Below are positions 16,315 through 34,843 of a DNA stretch of 64,000 nucleotides, piece by piece. How positions within the stretch are numbered: the first letter of the stretch is position 1; every line of letters starts with the position of its first letter. The stretch spans positions 1 to 64,000 of the forward strand of contig JAUYBL010000037.1 in assembly GCA_030693065.1 (NCBI GenBank). Reading direction: 5' to 3'. Source of the DNA: Methylococcaceae bacterium. GTDB taxonomy: Bacteria > Pseudomonadota > Gammaproteobacteria > Methylococcales > Methylomonadaceae. A program made the translations under genes and the position numbers. The notes under the pieces were generated by a model, which did no database searches, was not told where the DNA came from, and was given only the letters and a program-made list of their open reading frames with translations.

Positions 16315-17223
16315 ATGTGGTTTAAAAACTTAAGTATTTTTCGTCTTACCGAAGAATTCGCGCTAACGCCAGTCGAATTGGAAGAAAAGCTCGGTCAAAT
16401 CGCTTTTCGTCCTTGTGGTCAGCATGAAGAAGCTACCTTCGGTTGGACTGCGCCATTAGGCAAAACATCGCAACAGTTGGTACACGCAGCTAATGGTTTT
16501 ATGATGATTTGCGTAAAAAAAGAGGAAAAAGTCCTACCGGCAGCGGTAGTCAATGAAATGCTTCAGGAAAAAATCCTGGAAGCGGAAGATCAACAAGGCA
16601 GGAAATTAGCTAAAAAAGAACGCGCAGCGATCAAAGATGAACTGATCTTTGAATTGTTGCCCAGGGCTTTTACCTTTTCCAACAAAACCTATGCTTACAT
16701 TGATCCCAAAGGCGGCTGGATAGTCGTTGATGCCGCGTCAGCAAAAAAAGCTGAAGATTTACTCAGCCTGTTGCGAAAATGCTTAGGCTCATTACCTGCA
16801 GTTCCGCTTAATACTGTCGATAAACCAGTAGCGATCATGACTGATTGGTTGATCAACAACCAACCGCCTGCGGACATCGTTATCGAAGATGAATGCGAGC
16901 TGCGCTCGCCGGAAGAAGAAGGCGGCATTATTCGTTGTAAACGCCACGATCTATCACTGCCGGAAATCAAAAATCATCTGGATACCGGCAAGGAAGTGAT
17001 TAAATTGGCGGTCAGCTGGGCAGATCGTCTAGCGTTTATCATTGATGAAAATCTGGCCATAAAACGCCTTAAATTTCTGGATTTAATACAAGAACAAGTC
17101 ACCGACACTGAAACTTCAAGTGAAGCCGAACAATTTGATGTGGATTTTTCCATCATGTCATTAGAATTGGCTAACTTCCTGCCACGACTCTTGGAATTGT
17201 TTGGTGGCGAAAATAAAGCCTGA
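16315..17223 (+). CDS. rdgC: Recombination-associated protein RdgC
   Basis: The 302-residue protein opens with the RdgC signature 'MWFKNLSIFRLTEEF' and has 'FRPCGQHEEATFGWTAPLG' near residue 37. RdgC forms a ring-shaped dimer around DNA and restrains RecA filament activity at the nucleoid. The length matches the family. It stands alone with its own promoter region and is followed by a 10-bp stem-loop. Confidence 0.95.
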   Translation: MWFKNLSIFRLTEEFALTPVELEEKLGQIAFRPCGQHEEATFGWTAPLGKTSQQLVHAANGFMMICVKKEEKVLPAAVVNEMLQEKILEAEDQQGRKLAKKERAAIKDELIFELLPRAFTFSNKTYAYIDPKGGWIVVDAASAKKAEDLLSLLRKCLGSLPAVPLNTVDKPVAIMTDWLINNQPPADIVIEDECELRSPEEEGGIIRCKRHDLSLPEIKNHLDTGKEVIKLAVSWADRLAFIIDENLAIKRLKFLDLIQEQVTDTETSSEAEQFDVDFSIMSLELANFLPRLLELFGGENKA

Positions 17224-17276: not shown

Positions 17277-17330
17277 GATGCTCTCAAGGTATTACCCATG
17301 CAAAAATAATATGGATAAGATCGGCGTTAT

Positions 17331-20300
17331 ATGAAATCAATAGCATCCAAACTTAATGTACTGACTATTTTTTTAATAACGCTTACCACGTTGTCGACCT
17401 GCGGTTACCTCATTTGGCGGCAGCAACTTAATGTGCTTAGCAACTTTGATACATTGCTGGTTGTCTCAGTAATTATTTTGGCTGGTATCGTATTAGCGCT
17501 GTGGCAAACACGACGAATCCTGCTCCCTATCAAACAATTAATAGCAGCAACGCAAGCTGTTTCCCAAGGCGATTTTAATAACTCTTTGCCCTATTCTTCA
17601 GAAGATGAGTTTGCTGAAATAGCCACTGCGATTAACGACATGTCCCAAGAATTGGCGCGCTATCGCCATGACGCTGCCAATCAACGTGAAACGTTAGAAG
17701 AGCAGGTTGCACAGCGTACAAGTGAACTGGAACATAAAACCGATGAGGCATATCAACTTGTTGATGAAGCACAAGCAGCCAGTCGCGCTAAAAGTGAGTT
17801 TTTAGCCACCATAAGTCATAAAATCCTTACGCCAATCGATGACGTACTGGGTATGACAGAGTTGTTAGTCAATACCGAGTTATCTAGCCGCCAAAAACAC
17901 TTGGCGGAAACCATTTTCCGAGCCGTCGAATCATTACGCAGCGTTATTAGTAATATTACGGATTTGTCTCAAATTGAGAATGGTAAAGTTCAATTAAGTA
18001 TTGATGATTTTGATTTGCGGGCATTGCTGGATGATACCGATCAAATAATCACCAGCCAGTCGCAACTTGCCGCGACACTTGTTAAAGATGAAAGCCCTGA
18101 AACCAAAGGCACTATCCTTATCGCTGAAGATCAAGCCATTAACCAAGAAGTTGGTAAGTACATGCTTGCCGCACTGGGGTATCAGGTCGATTGTGTCAAT
18201 AATGGCCTGGAAGCTGTCAACGCCAGTGCTGAAAAGCACTATGACCTAATATTAATGGATTGCCACATGCCGGACATGGATGGATTTACCGCAACCGAGA
18301 CTATCCGAAAACGAGAATTAGCCGAGTTTTGGCAACGTAGAATTCCAATCATCGCCTTAACCGCCGATGCACAAACAGGCATTGTTGAACAATGCTTAGA
18401 TGCCGGTATGGATGGCTATCTTGGTAAGCCGTTTAATAGCGATCAATTGCAGGAGGTAGTGAGCAAATGGCTATTAGACAAGCGGCATCAAACAAGACCC
18501 GAAGCCACTACTGATGCGGTCGATGGCCGCCAGCAAGGCCTTACCTCCAACATCACCGAGCGTCGCAGTATCGTTTTAAAAGCTGAGGCACTAGAAAACT
18601 TAAGGCAAATTACAACAACTGCCGGAGAAACTTTACTCAATAATGCGATTAGAATGTTTCTGCATTCTGCACCCGAAGCTGTACAGGCATTGCGCAATGC
18701 TTTCGCCATTCAAGACGGTGCCGCATTAAGAAAAACCGCGCATAGTTTTAAATCAGTGTGCGCCAATTTGGGTGCTCAAGCGTTAGCTGATGCCTGTGCC
18801 TCGATTGAAAGTATCGCCAAGCAAGGCAAATTTACGGGCGTGGCAGAGTTGTTGGCGGCTATGGAAGTTAATCTTCCTAAAGTCATTAATGCTCTGACAA
18901 AAGAATTCGATAGTGCGGCGCTCGAAAATCCACCGCCTCCTACTCAGCCTAAACTAACCAGTAAACGTATTTTGCTGGTTGATGATGACAGTAACTTTCG
19001 TTTAATCACTAGCGTCGCCTTAAATGCCTCGGGATTTTTAGTCGATGAGGCTGTCAGCGGAAGCCAAGCGCTGGAAAAAATTGCCCGACAAGTACCCGAT
19101 TTAGTGCTGCTTGACGCCGTCATGGATGGACTCGATGGGTTTGAAACCTGCCGCTTATTACGTAATGCACAAAATATGGCCGATGTGCCGATTATTATGG
19201 CAACGGGCTTAGAGGATATTGATTCCATCAACCGTGCTTTTGATGCTGGTGCCAATGATTTCGTCATAAAACCTTTAAATTATCCTATCTTGGTCCATCG
19301 CTTAGGGTTTATTTTAAGAGCCAGCCAAAACATAGCGGAGCTTAGGAGCAAGAAATTTCAATTAAGTGCCGCTCAGCGCATTGCTCGCTTGGGCTATTGG
19401 ACTTGGGATGTCACCCTTAATCAATTTCAAATCTCCGAACATTTGGCAGAATTGTGCGGCATTGATTTATCCTCTTTTAATAAAACCTTAGACGGATTTA
19501 TTGCGCTGATTCATCCTGATGATCAAGGCTTCGTTAAAAACATAATTACAGCGGCACGTAATAAGGCCACCATTCAACATACTGAATACCGCTTACAGGT
19601 TAGCCACTCCGAGCCAATTATTGTTCACCAGGAAATCGAAGCCATCACCGAAAGCCAGCATGCCATTATTACCGGCACGGTTCAGGATATTACCCATAAA
19701 AAACAAACGGAATTGCAGATACATCGCTTAGCCTATTTTGACAATCTCACCGGTTTGGCAAGTAGGGCTTATTACCATGAGCGCATTGACGATTTCATTA
19801 ATACGGCTAATCGTCGTAATGAGCAGTTTGCATTTTTGTTTCTCGATCTGGATGGTTTTAAAGATATTAATGACAGCTTTGGACATGATGTTGGTGATCA
19901 TTTTCTGCAAGCCATTGCCGAACGCCTAAAAGATGTCGTTAGAGACATTGATTTCGCTGCCAGGTTGGGGGGAGATGAATTCTGTATTATTTTGAATAAT
20001 ATCGCCGATGAAGAGGGTATCGCGGAAGTTGCGGACCGTTGTTTGCGGCAGGTTAATCAACCTTTGCAGTTGGATCAGTATCAGCTGAAACCCCGCGTAA
20101 GTATCGGTATCGCAATTTATCCCAGGGATGGAACGAACGAAATTGATTTAATGAAAGCCGCAGACGCCGCTATGTATGCCGCTAAACAAGCCGGTAAACA
20201 GCGTTATATGTTTTATTCTGATGATATGGCCAGCCAGGCCATCACACGCTTGGAAAAAGAACAAACGTTAAGAGAGGCGTTTGATCAGGATCAGTTTGTG

Positions 20301-21029
20301 CTGCATTATCAACCGCAAATATCCATGCAGACCGGCAAAATGATTGGTATGGAGGCTTTGATTCGCTGGCAACATCCTGATAAAGGTCTGATTCCACCGC
20401 TTGAATTTATTCCGCTGGCCGATCAATTGGGCTTAATTACAGAGCTGGGTAATTGGGTATTACACACTGTCTGCAGGCAAATGGTGCAATGGCACCAAGC
20501 CGGTCTACCCTATTTACGAGTCGCCGTGAATATTGCCCCGGCGCATTTTCAAAATCCCGAGTTGTTCAATACGGTTAAAGACTTACTGCAACAGACTGGA
20601 ATACCGCCCGAATATCTTGAGTTGGAAGTTACCGAAAGCGCGATACAAACGTTCGGTTCGCTAAGCGTCTTTAAGCAGTTAAGAGAGTTAGGGGTAAAAA
20701 TTGCCATCGATGATTTCGGTACAGGCTATTCTTGTCTTGCTTCGTTAAAACAATTGCCTTTGGATTGCTTAAAAATTGACAAGGTGTTTGTCGATGATGT
20801 CTTAAGCAATCCGCATACGGCGTTGCTTTTGGGCACCATTATCGGTTTAGCAAACGCACTCGATTACACGTTGGTGGCCGAGGGTGTTGAAACCAAAGAA
20901 CAAGCGTTGATTATGCATGGCTTGGGTTGTCACATTATCCAAGGTTATTTGTTCAGTCGTCCGGTCGCCAGTGATCAAATCCCCTCCTTGTGTAATATTG
21001 ATTTCACGCTACCAAAAAATAATGCCTAA
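17331..21029 (+). CDS. Composite sensor: HAMP-HisKA-REC-HPT-REC-PAS-GGDEF-EAL
   Basis: The 1232-residue inner-membrane protein has two N-terminal membrane segments (residues about 10-28 and 43-60) with almost no periplasmic loop, then HAMP and coiled coil. A HisKA-type domain has His163 in 'SHKILTPI'. A receiver has Asp310 and an HPT domain has His471 ('AHSFKSVCANLGA'). A second receiver has Asp595 and is followed by PAS. GGDEF is intact ('LGGDEF', 880-884) and EAL is intact (EAL 1008-1010, 'EVTES', 'DDFGTGYS', 'AEGVE'). It could both make and destroy cyclic di-GMP. No HATPase_c domain exists between HisKA and the first receiver, so it cannot autophosphorylate and must receive phosphate from elsewhere. 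The HDOD gene overlaps its end. Confidence 0.93.
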   Translation: MKSIASKLNVLTIFLITLTTLSTCGYLIWRQQLNVLSNFDTLLVVSVIILAGIVLALWQTRRILLPIKQLIAATQAVSQGDFNNSLPYSSEDEFAEIATAINDMSQELARYRHDAANQRETLEEQVAQRTSELEHKTDEAYQLVDEAQAASRAKSEFLATISHKILTPIDDVLGMTELLVNTELSSRQKHLAETIFRAVESLRSVISNITDLSQIENGKVQLSIDDFDLRALLDDTDQIITSQSQLAATLVKDESPETKGTILIAEDQAINQEVGKYMLAALGYQVDCVNNGLEAVNASAEKHYDLILMDCHMPDMDGFTATETIRKRELAEFWQRRIPIIALTADAQTGIVEQCLDAGMDGYLGKPFNSDQLQEVVSKWLLDKRHQTRPEATTDAVDGRQQGLTSNITERRSIVLKAEALENLRQITTTAGETLLNNAIRMFLHSAPEAVQALRNAFAIQDGAALRKTAHSFKSVCANLGAQALADACASIESIAKQGKFTGVAELLAAMEVNLPKVINALTKEFDSAALENPPPPTQPKLTSKRILLVDDDSNFRLITSVALNASGFLVDEAVSGSQALEKIARQVPDLVLLDAVMDGLDGFETCRLLRNAQNMADVPIIMATGLEDIDSINRAFDAGANDFVIKPLNYPILVHRLGFILRASQNIAELRSKKFQLSAAQRIARLGYWTWDVTLNQFQISEHLAELCGIDLSSFNKTLDGFIALIHPDDQGFVKNIITAARNKATIQHTEYRLQVSHSEPIIVHQEIEAITESQHAIITGTVQDITHKKQTELQIHRLAYFDNLTGLASRAYYHERIDDFINTANRRNEQFAFLFLDLDGFKDINDSFGHDVGDHFLQAIAERLKDVVRDIDFAARLGGDEFCIILNNIADEEGIAEVADRCLRQVNQPLQLDQYQLKPRVSIGIAIYPRDGTNEIDLMKAADAAMYAAKQAGKQRYMFYSDDMASQAITRLEKEQTLREAFDQDQFVLHYQPQISMQTGKMIGMEALIRWQHPDKGLIPPLEFIPLADQLGLITELGNWVLHTVCRQMVQWHQAGLPYLRVAVNIAPAHFQNPELFNTVKDLLQQTGIPPEYLELEVTESAIQTFGSLSVFKQLRELGVKIAIDDFGTGYSCLASLKQLPLDCLKIDKVFVDDVLSNPHTALLLGTIIGLANALDYTLVAEGVETKEQALIMHGLGCHIIQGYLFSRPVASDQIPSLCNIDFTLPKNNA

Positions 21030-21930
21030 CTTTCCCAATTCACCGATGCAAGAAATTAATACTGAAGTCGCTCTACCGCAGTTTCTCAATAAATTTGACG
21101 GAAAAATACATTTATCGCCACCAGCGATGAACATCCATGTATTGATGAAAACGCTAGCCGATGACAACATGGGGCAGCGGGAATTGGCCGCAGTATTGCA
21201 TCATTACCCCGTTATCACCGCCCGACTGATTGCATTATCCAACTCTGTCTGGGCCTGTCCTGCGACTCCGATTAGCAATATCGAAACGGCCTGTGTCAGA
21301 TTAGGTACCGCAGTTGTTAAGGGCGTTAGTATTGCGATTGCTGTTGCGGCTTCTTTTAACGCCGCACGTTGCCCGGCATTTGATCCAATCCGTTTTTGGA
21401 CGACCAGCATGCTGGTGTCGGAAGGCGCCGGGTTGCTGGCCGCAAAGTTATCGAACAAAGTGATTTATTGCCAAGATTTTCAATATACCGCGCAAACAGC
21501 TGGTATTCTTCACAACTTGGGCTTATTGTGGCTAGCCGACAACTTGGCAACAGACACCTCCGAAGCATTGCATTTAGCCGCCACAGATTCGTTGTTAAGC
21601 GTTAACCAAGCGTTAATGCAACAAATGGGTATCGATTATTGTTTGATAGGTGCTTGGATAGGTAAACAATGGCAAATACCAGAAGAATTGATTGCTGTAA
21701 TGCGGCATCATAGAGACAAATCTTATCAAAATAACGTGTCACCATTGGTTTTACTGGTGGGGGCAGCGGCTAAAATGGTTTCATCAATGTTGCAAGAAAA
21801 CCATCAAATGCCTGACAATCAACACCTGCATAATTTAGGTATTGACGAGCAACTGCAAAGTATCGTTTTTAATCAGCTTACAAATAAAATTGATTCGACC
21901 CGCGAGCTGGCTAAGACCTTGTTTTTGTAG
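21022..21930 (+). CDS. HDOD-domain signalling protein
   Basis: The 302-residue protein contains an HDOD domain. This is a metal-free relative of HD phosphohydrolases used as a signalling scaffold. It has '[19 protein letters not shown]' near residue 55, '[15 protein letters not shown]' and '[15 protein letters not shown]' near residue 160. The HD residues are not kept as a catalytic set. The ATG at 21022 overlaps the stop of the GGDEF-EAL gene by 8 bp, so the two products are made together and probably work in one pathway. An alternative start is ATG 21046. Confidence 0.85.
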
Positions 21931-32608: not shown

Positions 32609-33193
32609 TTAGTAGTTCGGCGCCGTTGCCTGATCCTGACGTATTTGCCATTGCTTACGTAGCACATGTTTTATCAGCAATTCTTGATCGTCTTCGCGGA
32701 TATGAGTGTAATCAAGGCTGATTAGGAAACGGTCTGGCTCAATTTGTTGGCAATTGATAACTTTACTGTAGGCAAGAATCAGAGCAACAGTAGTGGGTAA
32801 AAATATTTCTATGGCTAGATGTTGACCAATTTGCAGCGGGCTACTTTGGTAGAAAGCCAAGCCGGTAGCGCTTAAGTTAACATCCTGATAATTCTTCGGA
32901 TTAACATCGCTGCCTATGATCATAGTGGCTTGGGCAATGGCATTAATTTTGCCATCCAGTATTTTGTATAACGCCATCATTTCGGGATTTTGGCTTTCCA
33001 ATCGTTGAATGAACAATGCGGCTTGTTGGGATAAAACATCCAAACTAGCGGCTAAAGAAAATTCAGCAGACATTTGACTCATTAATGCGTTGAGACCGGA
33101 ATTGACAGTGGCTTCATCAATCAACCGGTATGACAAGCTGATGGTGTCATCAACTCTGAAAAAACGTCGCCTTTCTGTTGCTATATTCTGCAT
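32609..33193 (-). CDS. PilZ domain protein
   Basis: The 194-residue protein carries a c-di-GMP-type PilZ signature. It has the Arg-rich 'ERRRFFR' at the N-terminus (about residues 7-13) and 'NLSATGLAF' near residue 115, matching RxxxR and (D/N)xSxxG. The helical insert between them is unusually long. It should bind cyclic di-GMP. Its position just after motB suggests it adjusts flagellar motor torque, by analogy with YcgR. The start ATG 33193 has AGGA 6 bases upstream. Confidence 0.85.
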   Translation of the reverse strand: MQNIATERRRFFRVDDTISLSYRLIDEATVNSGLNALMSQMSAEFSLAASLDVLSQQAALFIQRLESQNPEMMALYKILDGKINAIAQATMIIGSDVNPKNYQDVNLSATGLAFYQSSPLQIGQHLAIEIFLPTTVALILAYSKVINCQQIEPDRFLISLDYTHIREDDQELLIKHVLRKQWQIRQDQATAPNY

Positions 33194-33206
33194 GGTCATT
33201 CCTGAT

Positions 33207-34088
33207 TTAAGGTTTCTTGTCTGGAGTCGTATCTGTTTGAATGATTTGAGTATTGGTCGAATCTGTATTCAGTAGCACGTCATCTCTGGCAATAACAATT
33301 TCCACCCGGCGATTAATTGCACGATTTTGTGGTGAAGTGTTAGGCACCAATGGGTGCGTTTCAGCATGGCCTTCAATCAAAAACCGTTGCGGATCAAGGT
33401 GCATTTTTTCAAACATATATTGAGCCACTGTGACTGCGCGCGAGGATGATAATTCCCAGTTAGAACGGTAGGTTGCCGTCTTAATTGGAATGTCATCTGT
33501 ATGTCCGGCAACAATTACTTTGCCTTCTGATTTTGACACCGAATCGGTAATTTTATCCATGACAGGTTCAAACCCAGGCTTTAACACCGCACTTGCCGAG
33601 GAGAATGAGCCTTTTTCATTAATTCGCACAATAATTCTTGAACCATTTGTTTCTACTGTGACCAAGCCTTGTTCAATTTCAGTAGCCAGTTGCTTTTTGA
33701 TATTTTCAGCCTGCTCTTTGATTTCCTCCAGCTTGGCTTCGATTAGTTTCTGCTTTGCTTTTTCTAGGTCTTCAGGCGTTTCACTAATCTTGTCACTGTC
33801 TTGAGCGGTGGATTGCTTCACCTCATCAAGTGGTGAAGGGGTAACTTGTCCGGGGCTAAAGTTCTGCGCAATAATACTGGTTCCCATCGGCACTTGGTCA
33901 ACCTGGACCTCTCGCTGCACGCCAAAGGCATCTTTCATCGAGTCGGCAACCGCTTTAAATTTAACTACTTCGGTGCTTGCCATCGACAACAACAACACAA
34001 AAAAACACATTAATAGCGACATCATATCGGCAAATGTCGCCAACCACATTGGTGCGCCTACCGGTGGACACTTAGGACAATCAGCCAT
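33207..34088 (-). CDS. Flagellar motor stator protein MotB/PomB type
   Basis: The 293-residue protein has one N-terminal membrane segment with the ion-binding Asp21 ('WLATFADMMSLLMCFFVLLL'). A Gln/Lys-rich periplasmic linker and plug region follow. The C-terminal OmpA-like peptidoglycan-binding domain includes 'VIVAGHTDDIPIKTATYRSNWELSSSRAVTV' split over residues about 195-225. The Cys pair before the membrane segment, as in PomB, and the PomA-like partner suggest a sodium-type stator. It follows motA by two bases. Confidence 0.92.
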   Translation of the reverse strand: MADCPKCPPVGAPMWLATFADMMSLLMCFFVLLLSMASTEVVKFKAVADSMKDAFGVQREVQVDQVPMGTSIIAQNFSPGQVTPSPLDEVKQSTAQDSDKISETPEDLEKAKQKLIEAKLEEIKEQAENIKKQLATEIEQGLVTVETNGSRIIVRINEKGSFSSASAVLKPGFEPVMDKITDSVSKSEGKVIVAGHTDDIPIKTATYRSNWELSSSRAVTVAQYMFEKMHLDPQRFLIEGHAETHPLVPNTSPQNRAINRRVEIVIARDDVLLNTDSTNTQIIQTDTTPDKKP

Positions 34089-34090
34089 GG

Positions 34091-34843
34091 TTATTCCTCA
34101 CTACGTTTTTTCTCTGAGACATAGGTATAAAGTAATGTTTTTAATATTTTTGGGTTGGTGCCTTCCTGCAAATTAACAATAAAATTAAGTGCAAGTTGGC
34201 GATTGGCCTTTTCGTAGTTAAGTACACTGGCCAATTTATCTATCATCGGTAAAGCGAACACGTTAGCGATCATAGCCCCATATAACGTGGTTAATAAGGC
34301 TACCGCCATTGCCGGACCTATCGCGGCGGGATCGGACATATTAGCCAACATTTGTACTAAGCCGACCAGGGTGCCGATCATGCCCATAGCAGGTGCCAGA
34401 TCAGCCACACCTTTCCACATGTTTTGTCCGACTTCGTTACGGCTAACCATTAAATCAATGTCCTGTTGGAGCATTTCTCGGACAAATTCAGGAGAACAGC
34501 CATCAACACAAAGCCTGATGCCTTTCTTCATAAAGGGATCGGTCACTTCAGCTGACTCTAGCGCCAACAGTCCACTTTTACGGGCAGTATCTGCCAGGGC
34601 AACGGCTTCTTCGATTAAGATGGTTGGGTTGATTTTTTTATTCATAAATGCACGGCCCACCACGCCAAATGAACGAAAAAAGTCATCCAAAGGTACGCGC
34701 ATCAACGAAACGCCAAAGGTGCCGCCAAATACAATTAATAATGATGGCACATCAATAAACATCGAGATCGGGCCTCCGACCATGATGGCCGCCACGATAA
34801 TGCCAATACCCAATACAAAACCAAGCAAAGTTGCAATATCCAC
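34091..34843 (-). CDS. Flagellar motor stator protein MotA/PomA type
   Basis: The 250-residue protein has four membrane segments and the large cytoplasmic loop of MotA/PomA. Conserved parts include 'DVPSLLIVFGGTFGVSLM', the charged loop with 'MKKGIRLCVDGCSPEFVREML' and 'GMIGTLVGLVQMLANMSDP'. With MotB it forms the torque-generating ion channel. Its length and sequence are closer to PomA than to E. coli MotA. No other flagellar gene is in the window. Confidence 0.93.
   Translation of the reverse strand: MDIATLLGFVLGIGIIVAAIMVGGPISMFIDVPSLLIVFGGTFGVSLMRVPLDDFFRSFGVVGRAFMNKKINPTILIEEAVALADTARKSGLLALESAEVTDPFMKKGIRLCVDGCSPEFVREMLQQDIDLMVSRNEVGQNMWKGVADLAPAMGMIGTLVGLVQMLANMSDPAAIGPAMAVALLTTLYGAMIANVFALPMIDKLASVLNYEKANRQLALNFIVNLQEGTNPKILKTLLYTYVSEKKRSEE

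Follow-up and report, generated by a model that had tools for sequence, protein, structure and literature searches.

A kinase-less hybrid protein in a methane-oxidizing bacterium

The gene at positions 17331 to 21029 (forward strand) of the window, a stretch of 64,000 nucleotides from a Methylococcaceae bacterium (assembly GCA_030693065.1, contig JAUYBL010000037.1), encodes a hybrid protein of 1232 residues that has a HisKA domain, has no HATPase_c domain, and ends in the cyclic di-GMP (c-di-GMP) module GGDEF-EAL. The kinase domain has been lost, and from the acceptor residues kept in its receiver (REC), histidine phosphotransfer (Hpt), and further REC modules we infer that phosphate comes in from elsewhere. 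We consider it likely, judging from the sequence, that the protein is a kinase-dead, membrane-anchored REC-Hpt-REC relay that drives PAS-GGDEF-EAL and is phosphorylated by another kinase. A c-di-GMP protein in this methane-oxidizing bacterium thus probably now takes its orders from other kinases.

Pfam matches gave the order HAMP-HisKA-REC-Hpt-REC-PAS-GGDEF-EAL. A preliminary description of this DNA had reported HisKA without HATPase_c, and this was borne out, with no HATPase_c match up to an E value of 0.1. The relict HisKA (residues 153 to 218, positions 17787 to 17984; PF00512, 48 bits) contains His163 (17817 to 17819) in the altered H-box SHKILTPIDD and is followed by the segment DDFDLRALLDD, as had been described, and 43 residues separate its end (218) from the start of the receiver (262). 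We call the receivers REC2 and REC3 after their places among the three found in long orthologues. REC2 (residues 262 to 377, 18114 to 18461; PF00072) carries Asp310 in LILMDCHMP (18258 to 18260), at the position first given for it; Hpt (residues 440 to 512, 18648 to 18866; PF01627, 50 bits) carries His471 in the motif AHSFKS (18741 to 18743); and REC3 (residues ~547 to 657, 18969 to 19301; PF00072, 90 bits) carries Asp595 (19113 to 19115), so that all three acceptor residues are present. Behind them lie PAS_3 (residues 700 to 775, 19428 to 19655; PF08447, 26 bits, barely above the cut-off), GGDEF (residues 801 to 958, 19731 to 20204; PF00990) with an intact GGDEF motif (880 to 884) and RDID as its RxxD motif (871 to 874), and EAL (residues 978 to 1211, 20262 to 20963; PF00563, 257 bits) with the EAL motif at 1008 to 1010. 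The C-terminal REC-PAS-GGDEF-EAL part therefore has both its acceptor Asp and its catalytic motifs, and the earlier view of complete Hpt, second receiver, PAS, GGDEF, and EAL domains agrees with the Pfam matches and with the conservation described below.

The absence of HATPase_c is real. A second species of the genus (61 genomes searched, our own included) has the same short form, a 1239-residue frame (L021, in genome G001) with 94% protein identity and no HATPase_c match up to an E value of 0.001. It shows the identical junction in frame, and because of this the missing domain is not a sequencing or assembly gap, such as had been considered near position 18080. The two genes differ by a synonymous divergence (dS) of 0.29, with a ratio of nonsynonymous to synonymous rates (dN/dS) of 0.095 over 1232 codons, and each is a single open frame. 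The junction itself (residues 223 to 261, 17997 to 18113), placed by alignment and by the DNA of both short forms, spans just 117 bases and so leaves no room for a frameshifted HATPase remnant, which we rejected. A deletion through short direct repeats also gave no signal, with matches of only 6 to 7 bases between the corresponding flanks of the long orthologue L022.

Decay of HisKA and conservation of the relay and output domains

We compared the two short forms (the protein of our genome, G000, and L021) with long orthologues (long forms), of which there are 46 listed frames of at least 1600 amino acids and more than 50% identity, counting those of G010 and G231, where the match is fragmented. 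Positions invariant across long forms were identified in reference sets of 17, 30, and 45 and then checked in the short forms. With 45 long forms, 10 of the 34 HisKA invariants were broken in the protein studied here and 7 of 34 in L021, while from REC2 to EAL both short forms broke 0 of 147 (REC2, 0/20; Hpt, 0/4; REC3, 0/24; PAS region, 0/22; GGDEF, 0/44; EAL, 0/33). When single long forms were left out in turn, the one omitted broke at most one invariant in HisKA, whereas in REC2 it broke as many as 7 and in EAL as many as 8. The other sets gave equivalent results: 10/35 and 7/35 in HisKA versus 0/172 from REC2 to EAL in both short forms with 30 long forms (Fisher test, P value = 5.8 × 10−9 and 2.3 × 10−6), and 11/39 and 8/39 in HisKA (leave-one-out long forms, 0 to 2) with 0/213 across REC2, Hpt, REC3, PAS, GGDEF, and EAL in either short form with 17.

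The H-box, SHEIRTPMNG in 45 of the 46 long frames, reads SHKILTPIDD in our protein, with the histidine itself kept. E164K, directly beside the histidine, is among the changes, as are R166L, N170D, and G171D; in an H-box, an acidic residue after the histidine is important for autophosphorylation. The HisKA substitutions are partly common to both short forms, and in both there are breaks further along the domain. Substitution rates pointed the same way: HisKA dN/dS was 0.144 between the short forms versus 0.016, 0.037, 0.000, and 0.021 in four intact pairs, and that of REC2 was 0.075 versus 0.068, 0.070, 0.040, and 0.147. Purifying selection is strong on both REC3 and GGDEF (dN/dS of the latter, 0.017). 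These results show decay in what is left of HisKA and conservation in everything that follows it.

Losses relative to the long orthologues

The ancestor was a sensor-HAMP-HisKA-HATPase-REC-REC-Hpt-REC-PAS-GGDEF-EAL hybrid kinase. From stop to stop, the frames of the long orthologues measure 1614 to 1737 amino acids, and the two that were scanned with Pfam, L022 and L040, both carry HATPase_c in the order CHASE8-HAMP-HisKA-HATPase_c-REC-REC-Hpt-REC-PAS_3-GGDEF-EAL (the CHASE8 and PAS_3 matches of L040 fall below their cut-offs). The proposal of an origin from a kinase, made in the preliminary description, is upheld by these orthologues, by the nested position of the short form, which has long forms around it in both genus and family, by the decay of HisKA but not of the domains behind it, and by a second lineage that lost its kinase independently. 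The conversion of a kinase therefore stands, and the role proposed for the product, that of a phosphorelay receiver, follows as an interpretation of the REC-Hpt-REC residues. The earlier picture was incomplete in that the periplasmic sensor, the first of three receivers, and the upstream genes for TonB- and YfiR-type partners are gone as well, and in that the mosaic structure of the gene was missed.

By alignment, our protein lacks, between residues 41 and 42, the ~150 amino acids that make up the periplasmic sensor in long forms, and a block of ~300 amino acids holding HATPase_c and the first receiver is missing at the junction in both short forms. At the N terminus there remain a predicted membrane hairpin (residues 1 to 58, 17331 to 17504), whose residues 1 to 40 are 60% identical to L040, and HAMP (residues 59 to 108, 17505 to 17654; PF00672, 51 bits). 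Whereas Hpt is present and HATPase absent by domain matches, membrane anchoring is read from hydrophobic stretches and from helices in a low-confidence AlphaFold2 model (residues 1 to 540, mean predicted local distance difference test score of 60), which we take as a weak indication.

Genes of the ancestral family usually have two neighbors, one for a TonB receptor of the outer membrane and one for a partner in the periplasm, either YfiR-like or an ABC substrate-binding protein. A YfiR-like or substrate-binding partner lies upstream at 39 of 45 intact-kinase loci (38 within ~150 bases, L121 at 2.5 kb), and TonB is also found at all 39 except L129, where there are 678 bases of upstream sequence. 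The syntenic locus of G002 reads rdgC, TonB receptor, YfiR-like protein, long kinase, HDOD, and aquaporin. In our genome the gene comes straight after rdgC (16315 to 17223, forward strand; PF04381), with none of the TonB-receptor and YfiR-like genes that lie between in G002. Queries for TonB, YfiR, and substrate-binding proteins from L022 and L040 gave no match within the window, and in the rest of the genome the best TonB match was 34% and the best YfiR match 29% identical. The substrate-binding protein of L040 had no match in our genome, while the same query did find G010 and G003. G000 and G001 thus share an input-side loss that takes in the receptor and partner genes, the periplasmic sensor, HATPase, and the first receiver.

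The sensory operon is not universal, because six of the 45 intact-kinase loci (L033, L035, and L133, of one genus; L125, in G129; L126, in G171; and L148) show no TonB or periplasmic partner upstream, some of them with little upstream sequence covered. Because many intact-kinase loci stem from close relatives, they are also not independent. With these six loci and only two kinase-loss events, a coupling of kinase loss to partner-gene loss is not established.

Downstream, 16 bases past the stop, lies an HDOD-domain gene (21046 to 21930, forward strand; PF08668 on 21055 to 21930), and 9 of 20 loci in the family gave an HDOD match. Around 17331, a scan for promoters and terminators found nothing above chance. 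Further along the window, positions 32609 to 34843 (reverse strand) hold putative MotA/MotB-like stator genes and then a PilZ-looking protein, a possible c-di-GMP effector. Elsewhere in the same genome (L108, contig C7, 7416 to 14728), a second Yfi-like cluster encodes a YfiR-like protein, a CHASE8-HAMP-PAS-GGDEF-EAL protein of 800 amino acids, and two TonB-receptor-like proteins, with no kinase module between sensor and output.

Mosaic origin of the front end

Next, we looked into the relationships of the two ends of the gene. In a tree of the REC2 to EAL region, the protein and L021 group with G002 and G003, matching kinship (support, 100/100). Residues 1 to 222 instead group with a second set of orthologues, type B (L024, L025, L027, L029, L034, and L040; support, 100/100), and their placement in a clade with G002 and G003 was rejected (approximately unbiased [AU] test, P value = 2.9 × 10−56). 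HisKA alone leaves the orthologue type undecided (AU test, P value = 0.22 and 0.12). The gene is a mosaic, because its front and back ends belong to different orthologue types. At the DNA level, homology to G002 ends at 17279 and is fully back at 18087; between these points, positions 17766 to 18038 show weaker homology (70%). A fusion of tandem paralogues was considered and rejected, as no second type-B copy turned up in G000 to G003 with the front end as query and all other matches were at most 45% identical. This gene is thus marked both by the losses and by a front end that is foreign or was swapped in, in whichever order these arose.

A second kinase loss and the wider family

When the 46 long frames were read for motifs, 45 had the usual H-box and recognizable N, G1, and G2 boxes, with small kinase-box variants such as GGAGLGL in L103. 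The remaining one, L122 (4581 to 9572; G230, another genus), has NQDLHTPINA as its H-box, with the histidine changed to Q, and its N, G1, and G2 boxes are gone. It breaks 18 of 34 HisKA and 17 of 30 HATPase invariants and keeps both relay Asp residues, the Hpt His, GGDEF with RxxD, and EAL. No TonB, YfiR, or substrate-binding protein match was found in the 4.6 kb upstream of it. The kinase-dead state maps as two changes on the tree, and a single clade of dead forms was rejected (P value = 0.0017, quick tree). L122 lost its kinase motifs by substitution, independently of the short forms.

Among the 237 genomes of the family, 72 match at an E value of 10−130 or better, and the short-form architecture occurs only in G000 and G001 among the matches listed. 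Other relatives are smaller: L110, L111, and L113 consist of REC3-PAS-GGDEF-EAL alone; L038, L114, and L117 of Hpt-REC-PAS-GGDEF-EAL; and L118 to L120 of GGDEF-EAL alone. They are either reductions or older forms, and no kinase piece was found in the sequence adjoining any of them (for L038, by its open reading frame list).

L109 (4252 to 9276; G157, a one-contig genome) is a long form whose reading frame changes around HAMP, again between HATPase and REC1, and also within REC1. L116 (200 to 3083; G036) has a sensor frame and then HAMP joined directly to REC-PAS-GGDEF-EAL, with the HisKA-to-Hpt part missing.

Proposed mechanism and alternative explanations

We propose that a separate kinase would phosphorylate REC2 at Asp310, that the phosphate would pass from there to His471 of Hpt and on to Asp595 of REC3, and that phosphorylated Asp595 would tune c-di-GMP synthesis or breakdown by the attached PAS-GGDEF-EAL, with HAMP and HisKA remaining mainly as anchor and dimerizer. 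Possible donors are plentiful, because the genome has 47 HATPase_c matches. Several findings weigh against this reading. No donor kinase was singled out among the HATPase_c matches listed. His163 and Thr167 are kept in both short forms, so a residual role of HisKA is possible, and in the 17-form set both short forms break 1 of 5 HAMP invariants (coil, 0/5). Hpt dN/dS (0.187) exceeds that of the three intact pairs where it could be computed (0.047, 0.155, and 0.021), and between the short forms REC2 and Hpt have 14 nonsynonymous to 30 synonymous changes versus 23 to 118 from REC3 to EAL (P value = 0.03), so some loosening of the relay is possible. L122 breaks 3 of 147 invariants from REC2 to EAL, and REC2-Hpt is not always kept in the family, because L110, L111, and L113 retain only REC3-PAS-GGDEF-EAL.

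The weaker constraint on REC2 and Hpt than on the output would suit a phosphate-independent c-di-GMP enzyme, controlled via PAS, GTP, and product feedback, in which REC-Hpt-REC is passive and on its way out; so would the absence of kinase, sensor, and receptor genes and the further reduction of several relatives to REC3-PAS-GGDEF-EAL or GGDEF-EAL. We regard this as rather unlikely, since none of the 48 REC2, Hpt, and REC3 invariants is broken in either short form versus 7 to 10 of 34 in HisKA, REC2 dN/dS is inside the intact-pair range, and L122 independently retained the Asp, His, and Asp. It is more doubtful still that the HisKA remnant is active, whether in a heterodimer with another kinase, trans-phosphorylated by the partner's ATPase, or as a phosphatase on the receivers. 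The conservation of His163 and Thr167 speaks for such a role, as does ChrS with a broken CA domain, which is described as heterodimerizing with HrrS in Corynebacterium glutamicum (PMC9491836), but the four H-box changes and the further breaks along the domain speak against it, and HisKA is the retained domain with many broken invariants. An assembly error as the source of the deletion, or a gene that is dead, is very improbable: although the genomes are drafts and the junction sits exactly where two domains are missing, the same in-frame junction recurs in another genome, the 1232 codons have stayed open at the dS and dN/dS given above, and HisKA substitutions are common to both short forms.

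We return to the preferred reading, a relay phosphorylated by another kinase. On a wider view, which we put forward tentatively at somewhat under even chances, one hybrid kinase was turned at least twice and by different routes (block loss here, motif decay in L122) into a kinase-less, self-contained REC-Hpt-REC acceptor of three relay steps, hard-wired to a cyclase/phosphodiesterase, with control shifting from its own outer-membrane receptor to other kinases.

Significance and comparison with known systems

Here a sensor kinase has, in nature, been deprived of both sensing and catalysis, with relay and second-messenger output retained; intact sister genes in the same genus serve as controls, and L122 is an independent second case. 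The reading preferred here predicts an outside source of phosphate. It is wrong to annotate such proteins as histidine kinases, and this one should not bear that name. In a literature search, mostly without subscription papers, neither the protein family nor its kinase loss was found described.

Among the closest known systems, CfcR (Rup4959) of Pseudomonas putida is a REC-PAS-GGDEF-EAL protein like the C-terminal part of ours, and its activity depends on the Asp of its receiver and on the His of CfcA, an unlinked hybrid kinase (PMC4951495). In our protein this part is preceded by another REC and an Hpt, and there are also a membrane hairpin and the HAMP/HisKA relict; for CfcR the kinase partner is known. 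In Vibrio fischeri, the Hpt of the hybrid kinase SypF alone can suffice, with RscS and HahK feeding phosphate in (PMC11841056); SypF retains its kinase and acts on the response regulator SypG, whereas our protein has a fused c-di-GMP enzyme. RcsD of enterobacteria is a phosphorelay protein of the membrane that combines Hpt with a kinase part lacking activity, and common ancestry with the kinase RcsC has been suggested for it (PMC7418988); it keeps an inactive HATPase, whereas our protein has lost this domain by deletion and carries receivers and GGDEF-EAL in the same chain. The ChrS_CA-fs pseudokinase of C. glutamicum lacks its catalytic ATPase domain, and what remains of it is still important in signaling (PMC9491836), but it is a laboratory frameshift acting via HrrS heterodimers, with no relay or c-di-GMP output described in the abstract. 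Kinase-like proteins without HATPase are also reported from Archaeoglobus fulgidus (PMC1183210), where the accessible text mentions no relay or GGDEF-EAL architecture for them. The protein described here belongs with the known kinase-dead relay proteins, and what is unusual about it is a self-contained relay fused to c-di-GMP enzymes.

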